Of a stretch of 64,000 bases of DNA, positions 49,255 through 55,107 are shown piece by piece. The stretch covers positions 440,001 to 504,000 of the forward strand of contig NZ_JAYKGJ010000002.1 in NCBI RefSeq assembly GCF_036860695.1. The letters are read 5' to 3'. Numbering within the stretch: position 1 is the first letter of the stretch; each line of letters begins with the position of its first letter. This DNA is from Rosettibacter firmus (GTDB taxonomy: Bacteria; Bacteroidota; Ignavibacteria; Ignavibacteriales; Melioribacteraceae). A program made the translations under genes and the position numbers. Under the pieces are notes generated by a model. It had not been told where the DNA came from, did no database searches, and saw only the letters and a list, made by a program, of their open reading frames with translations.

Positions 49255-50075
49255 TTATTCTTCATCCGCTTTATGCAGTATTCAGAATGACATAATAAAA
49301 CAAAGAAGTCATGATGAGTCATATAAAAAGCAAAATGAAGAATCAATGTTTTGTTCAACCTAAATTGTCATTCTGAGTCTGACAGAGTCGGACGAAGAAT
49401 CTAACGAAGTCATCATGGAACGAAGTTACCGAAGACTCCAATATTATGATTCTGAGGTAATCTCGACGAAGTCGGATGACTGAAGAATCTGAGATCCTTC
49501 ACTCCGTTCAGGATGACAGACGAGTACTTGCGAAGTCATTCTGAGGGAGTGAAACGACCGAAGAATCTGAGATTCTTTTCGCTTGAAGCGGAATCAGAAT
49601 GACATAGTAAAACAAAGAAGTCATGATGAGTCATATAAAAAGCAAAATGAAGAATCAATGTTTTGTTCAACTTAAACTGTCATTCTGAGTCTGACAGAGT
49701 CGGACGAAGAATCTAACGAAGTCATTATAAGAATTAACGAAGTTATAATGAAATAATATAGTAAGAGATTCTTCATCCCGCTAAAGCGGGATTCAGAATG
49801 ACAATGTAAAACCAACACTGTCATTCTGAGGGAGTGAAACGACCGAAGAATCTGAGATTCTTCACTCCGTTCAGAATGACATGGTAATGCTGATAAAATG
49901 ATGTGATAAGTTGACGAAGTCATCCTGAGTCCGACAGAGTCGAGACGAAGGAATTAATAAAAAAATAAAATGAAAACTGAGATTTTTCATCCTACTAGAA
50001 GTGGGATTCAGAATGACAGTAAAAATAATGAAGACATTTAATTTAAGCGAAGTAACCGAAGAATCTCATGTACTT
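49255..50075. repeat. Cluster of dispersed palindromic repeats with a 132-bp duplication
   Basis: The 1,045-bp gap 49137-50181 holds no gene but is filled with variations on the words cattctgag, cgaagaatctgag, gattcttcactccg and tcagaatgac, which pair with each other to form hairpins of about 60 bases (clear copies near 49537-49603 and 49820-49880; another with cccgctaaagcggg near 49778-49801). Fragments 49282-49413 and 49594-49725 are a 132-bp direct repeat with three mismatches, 312 bp apart. In one frame the repeat reads C-H-S-E-R-S-E-E-S, a translation often met as spurious ORFs. These are non-autonomous interspersed repeats, not protein genes. Confidence 0.85.
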
Positions 50076-50181: not shown

Positions 50182-50928
50182 ATGCGAAAAATATTGTTAA
50201 TAATATTAACATTAATTTTATTCAAAATAAATCTATACCCACAAACATTTGGATTTGGATGCCTTGGATTAAGTGGTTTCTATGCAGGTATTACACAACA
50301 GGAATATGAATCAAAAGGAATTACAGAATATCTTTTCCCTGAAAGTATTAATAATCCTGATTTACACACAGATTTTAATTTTAAAAAAGCTACTGGCTAT
50401 CGAGTTGGTGCAAATATATTTAGAGCAAAATTTTCTAAAGTATTTATTACAGCCAAAGGATATTATCAATTCCTTAAAGAATCACATAATCGACAAATTT
50501 ATACTGATATTAATGGAGAAAGAAATTATAAATATGAATTATCAATGAATCACTGGGGAGTGGGATTGGACTTAGGATTCCCGATTTTTTCACTTCTTGA
50601 TTTTAAATTATTAGAAGGACATGTTACATTTATGAATCCAGAATTCAGTACAGAAGAACTTGATGTTAATAATAATATTCTGAATGAAAATAAATTAACA
50701 ACAGATAAAGTCAGGATTGGTTACTTTGTAGGTTCTGGAATAATAGTTCACTTAATACCGGATTATGTTAGTATCGAAGCAACAGCTGGCTATTCATTTT
50801 ATTTAATTGAAAAATTTTATGATGATAATAAAAACATTGTGATACCTGTACAGGATTCAAAAAATTATCCAGTTAATAAAAGTAAATTCTCTGCAACTCT
50901 ACAGTTGAATGTTGGATTCCCGCTTTAA
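50182..50928 (+). CDS. Exported protein of unknown function, possible outer-membrane barrel
   Basis: A 248-residue protein I do not recognise. The N-terminus is a signal peptide (MRKILLIILTLILFKINLYPQ). The mature part begins with a glycine-rich strand (TFGFGCLGLSGFYAGI) and alternates aromatic and polar residues, ending in ATLQLNVGFPL. The pattern suits a small outer-membrane beta-barrel with eight to ten strands. It is isolated between the repeat cluster and the non-coding zone. Confidence 0.7.
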   Translation: MRKILLIILTLILFKINLYPQTFGFGCLGLSGFYAGITQQEYESKGITEYLFPESINNPDLHTDFNFKKATGYRVGANIFRAKFSKVFITAKGYYQFLKESHNRQIYTDINGERNYKYELSMNHWGVGLDLGFPIFSLLDFKLLEGHVTFMNPEFSTEELDVNNNILNENKLTTDKVRIGYFVGSGIIVHLIPDYVSIEATAGYSFYLIEKFYDDNKNIVIPVQDSKNYPVNKSKFSATLQLNVGFPL

Positions 50929-51056
50929 ATATTTTCTGAAATAATATTACAAATAAACAGATGGTATAAAAATTTATTTCTTGTAACAAATTATATTTTA
51001 GTAAAAATTTTCAAGTAGATTGATTTTTTATAAAAAAAATTAGATATTTGTATATA

Positions 51057-51313
51057 TAAAGGGCAGATAGAAAGGGCTTACTACCAGATAGATTCCAGAT
51101 TCTGAAATTTTCGAATGATGTGGATTATGCGTTACGGTAAAATTTTTAGCTAATCCACAGAGTTTTTGGATATGCTAAAGTATTTTACCTCATTAGATTT
51201 TATTTTCATAAAATAGTCAGATGTAACTGACTAAGCGGAGCACTATTCAAAATTAATTTTACACTAATCAAAACTTATTAGGAGGGTTAAGATACTCGGG
51301 AACGAGGGCATTT
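51057..51313 (+). ncRNA. Candidate structured RNA with pseudoknot potential
   Basis: In the 572-bp gap 50929-51500 several perfect helices can form. S1: tgtggatta 51119-51127 with taatccaca 51151-51159. S2: ggtaaaat 51136-51143 with attttacc 51182-51189, extended by tttagc/gctaaa (51145-51150 with 51174-51179). Because S2's 5' arm lies in the S1 loop and its 3' arm lies outside, S1 and S2 form an H-type pseudoknot or alternative folds. Hairpins 51197-51214 and tagtcag/ctgacta 51214-51233 follow, and ctcg-ggaa-cgag near 51295-51306 precedes six T. GATATTTG at 51043-51050 is one base off a -7 box. No known RNA family was recognised. Confidence 0.5.
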
Positions 51314-51366
51314 TTTATATTCCTAACACTTGTCTGTTTTTGTTAACCATGTATTTCTTTAATAAA

Positions 51367-51416
51367 CTTAGCGTCCTTAGCGGTTTTAATATAGTTTAAC
51401 CGCAGAGGACGCTAAG
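51367..51416. repeat. TTAGCG-type inverted repeat, copy 2
   Basis: Outer stem 51367-51377 with 51406-51416 (11 perfect pairs) and inner stem gcggtt/aaccgc (51380-51385 with 51398-51403). The word order cttagcg-tc-cttagcggtt matches copy 1 at 47672 with G/A changes. A half copy with the same words lies at about 52859-52880. Confidence 0.75.
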
Positions 51417-51462
51417 CTTACTAAGCTTTTATCCTTTGCGAGCTCTGCGGTTTCAATATAGA

Positions 51463-51500: not shown

Positions 51501-52193
51501 TTAGCTGAGTTGACTATAAAAAGTACTGGAATAATTAATCAGAGAATTATTCTCATCGTAAGTAAGTAATGTTGAGAATAATTTCTTATCCTGATAATTA
51601 CTCAACTTTTGTTGGATAGTTGTAGGAATAAGAGTTTCAAAGTTGAGTGGATTATCAAGATTAATTATAACTGAATTAGAACTCATTAAAGAAACATCAA
51701 ATTGGGGAATAGTTTCTGTAGTACTATTTGTTAATAATAATAGAGAAATAATTTTCCCAAATTTTTCAACATCTGGATTTATCAATGATGTTTCTGTTAA
51801 TGGTAGAAGTTTAATATTCAGCTTATCATTAGCAATAGTAACAGAATCAAGTCTCACTCCAATATTCGAATCAGGAACAATAATGAGTTCATTTATAACT
51901 GAATTATTATCAGTATAATTACAAAATGTAGACATTAAATAGTTAAAAGTACTTAAGTTATTAGGTTTATGGCTTGTCCAGATTTCCTTCAGTTCAAGAT
52001 TTGAGTTTATTAAAGAACTGATTTTAGCAGAACAGGAAAATTTATAAATGCGTTTTTTGTAGTCTTCAGAATTAGGTGGAGTATACGATTCAGGTTTCTG
52101 AGTAATGAAATTTTTACCATTACGCTGTTTGAAAACAGCTTTTCCGAATGTTCCTTGGATAAAACCAAAGAATTGTTTATTTAGTTTTGCCAT
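51501..52193 (-). CDS. DUF6266-like protein
   Basis: A 230-residue protein without signal peptide. The N-terminus (MAKLNKQFFGFIQGTFGKAVFK, residues 1-22, with a G-x-x-G-x-x-G-K-like spacing), followed by QKPESYTPPNSEDYKKRI and STFNYLMSTFCNY, resembles the Bacteroidota family DUF6266, whose function is unknown. The rest is beta-rich with many Asn/Ser/Thr, ending SLINYSSTFYSQLS. A clear aggag ribosome-binding site (minus strand) precedes the ATG. It sits alone in the gene-poor zone, preceded by a hairpin and phased 11-bp repeats. The family call is tentative. Confidence 0.6.
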   Translation of the reverse strand: MAKLNKQFFGFIQGTFGKAVFKQRNGKNFITQKPESYTPPNSEDYKKRIYKFSCSAKISSLINSNLELKEIWTSHKPNNLSTFNYLMSTFCNYTDNNSVINELIIVPDSNIGVRLDSVTIANDKLNIKLLPLTETSLINPDVEKFGKIISLLLLTNSTTETIPQFDVSLMSSNSVIINLDNPLNFETLIPTTIQQKLSNYQDKKLFSTLLTYDENNSLINYSSTFYSQLS

Positions 52194-53795: not shown

Positions 53796-53870
53796 ATGAA
53801 AATACTTGTAACAGGCGGGGCAGGATTTATAGGAAGTAATTTAATAGACCATTTACTGGATTTAGGATGA
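53796..53870 (+). pseudogene. N-terminal fragment of a nucleotide-sugar epimerase/dehydratase
   Basis: A 24-codon open frame reads KILVTGGAGFIGSNLIDHLL then DLG and a TGA stop. This is the canonical Rossmann start of GalE/RmlB/UDP-glucuronate epimerase-type SDR enzymes, but nothing downstream continues it in any frame. It marks the border of the polysaccharide cluster and is probably left from recombination that replaced genes here. Confidence 0.8.
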
Positions 53871-54063: not shown

Positions 54064-55107
54064 ATGTTTTCCAATAAAATTTTACTGATAACTGGTGGAA
54101 CGGGATCATTCGGGAATGCAGTCTTAAGAAGATTTTTAAATACAGATATAAAAGAAATAAGAATTTTTAGCCGCGATGAAAAAAAGCAAGATGATATGAG
54201 ACAGTTTTATAAAAATAACAAGATTAAATATTTCGTTGGTGATGTAAGAGATAAAAGAGCAGTTGATGAAGCAATGAGAGGAGCGGATTATGTTTTTCAT
54301 GCAGCGGCTCTTAAACAGGTTCCCTCCTGTGAGTTTTTTCCTGTGCAAGCAGTTTATACAAATGTTATAGGTACGCAAAATGTATTAGATTCAGCAATAG
54401 AACATTTGGTAAAGAAAGTTGTTGTACTAAGCACAGACAAAGCTGTTTATCCAATAAATGCAATGGGAATGACTAAAGCACTTGCAGAAAAAGTTTTGGT
54501 TGCGAAGTCGAGGGAATTTGATAAAAATGGAAATAAGACATTAATAGTTGGAACTCGCTATGGAAACGTAATGGCTTCGAGAGGTTCTGTGATACCATTA
54601 TTCGTTGAACAGATAAAAGCAGGGAAACCAATAACAATTACTGAACCCCAAATGACTAGATTTATGATGACACTTGAAGAGGCTGTTGATTTAGTTTTAT
54701 TTGCTTTTGAAAATGGTAAACCAGGGGATATTTTTATACAAAAAGCACCTGCAGCTACAATTGAAACTATAGCTAAAGCTTTACTGGAACTATATAACGC
54801 TAAAAATGAGATTAAGATAATAGGTGTAAGACATGGTGAAAAGATTCATGAAACTCTCGTCAATAGAGAAGAGATGGCAAAGGCAGAGGATTTAGGTAAA
54901 TTTTTCAGAATACCTGCTGATGTACGCGATCTAAATTATAATAAATTTTTTACAGAAGGAGAAAATAAATTTAGATTTTCTGAAGATTATACTTCAAACA
55001 ATACATACAGACTAAATATTGAGGAAACTAAAGAACTATTAATGAAATTAAGATTTATTAAAGAAGATGTATTAGGTGAGAAATTAGAACCCATTTATGA
55101 GCCATAA
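54064..55107 (+). CDS. capE: UDP-N-acetylglucosamine 4,6-dehydratase/5-epimerase (CapE/WbjB/FnlA type)
   Basis: A 347-residue SDR that starts UDP-L-FucNAc synthesis by 4,6-dehydration and 5-epimerisation of UDP-GlcNAc. The Rossmann motif GGTGSFGNAVLRRF (10-23), SRDEKKQDDMR (about 36-46) and AALKQVPSCEFFP (about 81-93) define the CapE/FlaA1-like group. In the catalytic Tyr-x-x-x-Lys position the sequence is MGMTK, with Met in place of Tyr, a substitution typical of CapE/WbjB. CapF- and CapG-like genes follow in order, which supports this pathway rather than pseudaminic acid synthesis. Confidence 0.87.
   Translation: MFSNKILLITGGTGSFGNAVLRRFLNTDIKEIRIFSRDEKKQDDMRQFYKNNKIKYFVGDVRDKRAVDEAMRGADYVFHAAALKQVPSCEFFPVQAVYTNVIGTQNVLDSAIEHLVKKVVVLSTDKAVYPINAMGMTKALAEKVLVAKSREFDKNGNKTLIVGTRYGNVMASRGSVIPLFVEQIKAGKPITITEPQMTRFMMTLEEAVDLVLFAFENGKPGDIFIQKAPAATIETIAKALLELYNAKNEIKIIGVRHGEKIHETLVNREEMAKAEDLGKFFRIPADVRDLNYNKFFTEGENKFRFSEDYTSNNTYRLNIEETKELLMKLRFIKEDVLGEKLEPIYEP

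Follow-up and report, generated by a model that had tools for sequence, protein, structure and literature searches.

The stretch described here (51040-51313, in the coordinates of the window, i.e., the whole piece of 64 kb of DNA that was analysed) is a spacer between two convergent genes, one on the plus strand (50182-50928, 248 aa, ending at 50928) and one on the minus strand (51501-52193, 230 aa, ending at 51501); neither of them has a match in Pfam. Since both neighbours converge on the spacer, neither strand can act as a leader or a riboswitch, elements that are found in the 5' UTR of the gene they regulate, a position that this stretch does not occupy. The upstream gene (50182-50928) is conserved across the family, and at most of the inspected family loci an aminopeptidase-like gene comes next after its orthologue, with a UvrD-like helicase gene behind it; in the organism's own genome and in G002 this order is broken, and in G002 an orthologue with 77% identity is followed by a different convergent gene, without a comparable spacer. 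The elements of the spacer, together with the conserved small RNA (sRNA) to which a part of it is related, are collected in Table 1.

Table 1. Elements of the spacer and the related sRNA gene (positions are those of the window, except in the last line).
Element	Position	Strand	Sequence or composition	Basis
Relaxed Bacteroidota-type promoter match	51019..51050	+	ATTG-N20-GATATTTG	sequence
S1 (9 bp, perfect)	51119-51127/51151-51159	+	TGTGGATTA / TAATCCACA	sequence, helix energy
S2 quasi-palindrome	51136-51150/51174-51189	+	GGTAAAATTTTTAGC / GCTAAAGTATTTTACC	sequence, folding
Nested inner stem, continuing S2 inward	51153-51157/51167-51171	+	competes with S1	
7-bp hairpin, A+T only	51197-51203/51208-51214	+	ATTTTAT/ATAAAAT	sequence, folding
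7-bp hairpin	51214-51220/51227-51233	either	TAGTCAG/CTGACTA	folding, terminator scan
Mini-stem, then T6	51295-51306, 51311-51316	+	CTCG-GGAA-CGAG	complement of sRNA block
Partial sRNA copy	51275..51313	- (sense; antisense on +)	TGCCCTCGTTCCcGAGTaTC..TAACCCTCCTAATAA	sequence identity
Own sRNA, unannotated	L002:1476-1592 = G000:C1 ~618466-618582	+		covariance models

The two stems S1 and S2, which an earlier note on this DNA had described as an H-type pseudoknot, are indeed found at the positions given there and their perfect pairing can be read directly from the sequence; the 5' arm of S2 abuts the 3' arm of S1, with 0 nt between them, and the two stems interlock in the sequence as an H-type pseudoknot demands. 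The other elements listed in that note are likewise present: both 7-bp hairpins (which have base 51214 in common), the GGAA-capped mini-stem, the T-run and, preceding the stems, a near-consensus -7 box. S2 can be read as 8+6 bp or, in the register of the minimum free energy structure, as 15 bp with one bulge; moreover, the 3' arm of S1 pairs also inside the nested continuation of S2, yielding a nested hairpin of 15+5 bp. It is this nested hairpin that is picked by an ordinary folding program, at -18.5 kcal/mol for the segment 51119-51189; when the helix energies are roughly summed and corrected by a pseudoknot penalty of 9.6 kcal/mol, the pseudoknot obtains about -24 kcal/mol, provided that its loop of 8 nt is able to bridge 15 bp, and on this rough estimate, with the same proviso, the pseudoknot is ahead by about 5 kcal/mol.

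The frequency at which such structures arise by chance was evaluated over the 64-kb window. Interlocked stems with S1 of at least 9 bp and S2 of at least 8 bp that fit into 85 nt were counted at 5 places of the real window, compared to 1.15 on average in shuffled windows, and the addition of the 6-bp extension of S2 leaves one place in the real window and none in the 150 shuffled ones; when the 274-nt stretch itself was shuffled (n = 3000), one sequence contained a pseudoknot and none the S2 extension, although the significance of these figures is somewhat overstated because the criteria were set after the structure had been seen. The interlocked stems at 51119-51189 are non-random. The entire stretch stands out less by its fold energy (z -1.6), which 11 of 200 shuffled sequences matched. 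One more of the five interlocked places coincides with the neighbouring inverted-repeat cluster at 51366-51461; this adjoining segment, in which CTTAGCGTCCT(TA/CT)GCGGTT recurs in three related, inverted copies, has the appearance of a dispersed repeat and forms interlocked stems as well.

As to transcription signals, the -7 box GATATTTG (51043-51050) carries one mismatch to the consensus TAnnTTTG and has a TTG 20 nt upstream; this promoter match is weak evidence, because equally relaxed matches recur across the window (17 on the plus strand and 7 on the minus strand). No match to a promoter of the TTG/TAnnTTTG type was found on the spacer's minus strand. Concerning termination, the TAGTCAG/CTGACTA hairpin, when read on the minus strand (51233-51214), has TTTTAT behind it and was scored as resembling a terminator; the mini-stem followed by T6 on the plus strand, whose stem has only 4 bp, was not reported by the terminator scan.

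The density of pairing had led to the proposal, in the earlier note, of a functional RNA or of a two-state switch. The pairing is non-random, but the tests of RNA function that could be run gave nothing in favour of this proposal; a switch acting in cis is unlikely, both flanking genes pointing inward, and on balance a functional role of the spacer structures is unlikely. What would be left is an orphan structured RNA of the plus strand, with a pseudoknot core, acting in trans and independently of the sRNA described below; the interlocked stems, the rough energies that place the pseudoknot above the nested hairpin and the promoter-like box are in its favour, and yet we consider it distinctly unlikely, since no homologue could be found in the organism's own genome, in relatives, in Rfam, or among phages and plasmids, nor an exact match to the S2 arm in viral contigs, and a leader or riboswitch role is precluded by the convergent setting. 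The covariance search called for in the earlier note did not bring any family to light: at the gathering threshold Rfam 15 recognises in the window only a tRNA, and a permissive scan returned only chance-level matches, far under the gathering scores. No orthologue of the spacer was detected in about 78 genomes of the family or in 196 relatives, no phage or plasmid matches it, and an exact search of viral contigs with the S2 arm gave no match; within the own genome the only part present in a second copy is the 39-bp sRNA block, and the other weak matches consist of AT-rich noise or correspond to the end of a cas6-like gene. The matches in relatives (L005, L007, L008, L009 and L010) were discarded as due to chance, being mutually unrelated and apparently located within coding sequence. 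A lack of homologues with compensatory changes had been named beforehand as an argument against function; as zero homologues were found, it tells against function only weakly.

A comparison with known H-type pseudoknots, such as those of the preQ1-II and SAM-II riboswitches, highlights a similar topology, with interlocked stems and no spacer between the 5' arm of S2 and the 3' arm of S1; unlike these riboswitches, the structure found here is upstream of no gene, has neither an Rfam match nor homologues, and is built of longer (9 and 15 bp), A+T-rich stems.

The few resemblances detected outside the sRNA block raise the idea that the spacer is what is left of a cas6-like gene or a mobile element: segment 51161-51217 is 78% identical over 57 bp to the 3' end of a cas6-like gene of the organism's own genome (E 0.004), and segment 51170-51241 is similar to intergenic sequence that precedes an apparent cas6 gene in G030. 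Such an origin is nonetheless highly improbable, since these scores are at the level reached by chance coding matches in the same search, none of the seven six-frame fragments tested has a match in Pfam and no further copies exist in the genome. The pattern GTCAGN{1,2}TGTAACTGACTNAGCG is present, among 391 genomes of the class, only in G030 and in the own genome (G000); it does not represent independent evidence, because it was derived from the same 51170-51241 match.

The 3' end of the stretch led to a conserved sRNA family of the Ignavibacteria, which is newly described here and which is a more valuable result than the pseudoknot. The sRNA (about 110 nt in the own genome, on C1, and about 80-115 nt across the family) has orthologues at loci L003, L004, L053-L082 and L116-L135; the genus copies form two strong hairpins (folding z from -4.6 to -6.1), and both a promoter box and a T-run-bearing terminator belong to the RNA gene. 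When the three genus copies were used to build a covariance model (R1), it detected the sRNA in 40 of 196 relatives, and a second one (R2), built from 15 of the sequences matched by R1, in 75 of 391 genomes of the class, mostly in one copy each; its distribution comprises three families of the order and, elsewhere in the class, family f13. In the 11-bp terminator helix every cell of the alignment (100%) is paired and the covariation is strong, 7 of the 11 pairs having changed on both sides where shuffling of the columns gives 3.3 and slid controls give 0-2; the GCCCUC loop of the terminator is invariant in the alignment, and most members carry CCCUCC upstream of it. The sRNA family is therefore real. 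No credible Rfam match was obtained at the three genus loci, and a literature search for sRNAs of Ignavibacteria or Melioribacter retrieved no paper. At many loci in the family to which the window belongs, genes for a histidine kinase and for a dCMP deaminase flank the sRNA, and the deaminase gene is in turn followed by a polyphosphate-kinase-like gene (products read from the sequence).

Close upstream of the sRNA, 25 of 30 loci display a sigma54-type -24/-12 box, TGG(C/T)A(C/T)-N5-TTG, of which there are only 28 occurrences in the 186 kb of those loci; the same type of box precedes the sRNA copy in 16 of 20 further loci, while the genus loci and L065 and L071 have a TAnnTTTG box in its place. 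Judging from these boxes, the sRNA is apparently controlled by sigma54 in most members, and its C-rich unpaired motifs suggest a pairing with ribosome-binding sites of the GGAGGG type. These features recall the Qrr RNAs of Vibrio, which are also short and combine a sigma54-type promoter, a terminator hairpin and a C-rich unpaired motif; the two belong to different phyla, and the likeness noted here is one of features rather than of sequence. Two minor observations concern RNAs: a 16-base piece of the sRNA has matches in six viral contigs, a number near the chance expectation, and a sub-threshold match to 6S RNA (29.2 bits versus a cut-off of 46.4, E 5.8e-4) at G000:C1:335160-335366 on the minus strand (L011) may correspond to the 6S RNA of this organism.

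The segment 51275-51313 is 87-90% identical, over 39-40 nt, to the own sRNA on C1 and to those of G001 and G002, and the matched part is the 5' half of the ~110-nt RNA gene. The 13-mer TATTAGGAGGGTT, searched with at most one mismatch across the whole genome, is present only in this segment and on the strand opposite the sRNA gene. The GNRA-capped mini-stem and the T-run, which the earlier note lists after the stems, are real; they are, however, explained by descent from the conserved sRNA on the opposite strand. The block running from the loop through the 3' arm to the seed is kept, including GCCCUCG and CCCUCC, while the 5' arm of hairpin 1 is lacking; on the minus strand downstream no terminator helix with a GCCCUC loop was found, and inspection by eye of the aligned sequence upstream revealed no sigma54-type box. 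Model R1 assigns to the segment 12.3 bits (E 0.62) and R2 does not report it. Because promoter, 5' arm of hairpin 1 and the defining terminator are missing, and in view of these scores, the segment is to be regarded as a fragment and not as a member of the family.

That the minus strand nevertheless encodes a diverged paralogue of the sRNA, extending from about 51330 to 51210 and ending at the TAGTCAG/CTGACTA terminator, would be in keeping with the sense orientation of the homologous block, with the conservation of GCCCUCG and CCCUCC and with the terminator-like hairpin and T-run downstream (mean in shuffles 0.3, both strands together). The family does duplicate, as indicated by tandem sRNA copies about 110-200 nt apart in G019, G042 and G120 (L132, L133 and L134), and such second copies are a precedent for a paralogue. 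The proposal is unlikely, given a minus strand with no promoter match, the loss of the 5' arm of the first hairpin and the lack of the invariant GCCCUC-loop terminator; nor is the segment recognised by the family models.

The opposite strand of the fragment offers a different reading, that is, a plus-strand RNA of about 260 nt, stabilised by the pseudoknot, acting as a sponge that titrates the conserved sRNA; its 3' end (51275-51313) would pair with about 36 nt of the sRNA, covering the CCCUCC seed and a GCCCUC loop. The extended complementarity to an sRNA that is typical of sponges is there: the predicted duplex between the plus strand of the fragment and the own sRNA reaches -75 kcal/mol, compared to a mean of -37 (sd 8) for 974 pieces of the window, the best of which, beside the fragment site, reaches -64; yet a strong duplex follows automatically from common descent. 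Apart from the strand opposite the sRNA gene, the core complement is found nowhere else in the genome, and a promoter-like box is found upstream. The fragment differs from the own sRNA by two substitutions, both of which leave G-U wobble pairs and one of which completes the plus-strand mini-stem; this is suggestive, but two changes are far too few to show selection and prove nothing, both being wobble-compatible by chance about one time in four. Furthermore, the perfected mini-stem makes a weak terminator, folding predictions place most of the block in internal pairs and there is no second site in G001 or G002, so that a sponge appears improbable. With respect to known sponges and anti-sRNAs, the plus strand would carry a near-perfect complement of the sRNA seed; the segment arose as an inverted partial copy, and what it shares with sponges is complementarity. 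The fuller version of this idea, a species-specific plus-strand RNA whose pseudoknot could switch to the nested hairpin and whose 3' inverted sRNA copy would sponge the sRNA, is quite doubtful. If true, a sponge of this kind would illustrate how a stretch of an sRNA gene, once inverted, can turn into an antagonist of that sRNA, part of the target having given rise to its regulator.

The best explanation, in which about as much trust as doubt is to be placed, is that the stretch is a lineage-specific spacer containing quasi-palindromes and, on the minus strand, a fossil or fragment of the sRNA. It sits between the convergent genes, at a point where the gene order of this genus was rearranged; the arms of the quasi-palindromes would produce the apparent pseudoknot and the hairpins, the inverted repeats having probably arisen by their ordinary generation and the sRNA fragment by a short duplication, and these structures would have no selected RNA role. 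A lineage-specific spacer is supported by the convergent neighbours, the lack of orthologues, the single copy, the fragment without terminator and the adjoining repeat-like segment 51366-51461; counting against it are the interlocked stems, rarer in shuffled sequences than observed, and the promoter-like element at the right distance upstream, as well as the good preservation of a block of about 38 nt between dissimilar flanks, which suggests constraint if the duplication is old. The pseudoknot taken alone is probably an unconserved oddity of the spacer, and calls for caution, dense perfect pairing in AT-rich intergenic DNA being no proof of an RNA.

Two further observations were made nearby in the window. 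At 49672-49923, on the minus strand, there is a spurious reading frame of 83 aa (CHSERSEE...LRMTV), which we take to be what a dispersed, palindromic repeat of intergenic DNA (TTCTGAGCGAAGCGAAGAAT-like) typically yields on translation. At 53796-53870, the start of an apparently truncated nucleotide-sugar epimerase frame (MKILVTGGAGFIGSNLIDHLLDLG, then a stop) stands upstream of an intact Polysacc_synt_2 gene at 54064, and is a sign of decay in a gene-poor stretch.
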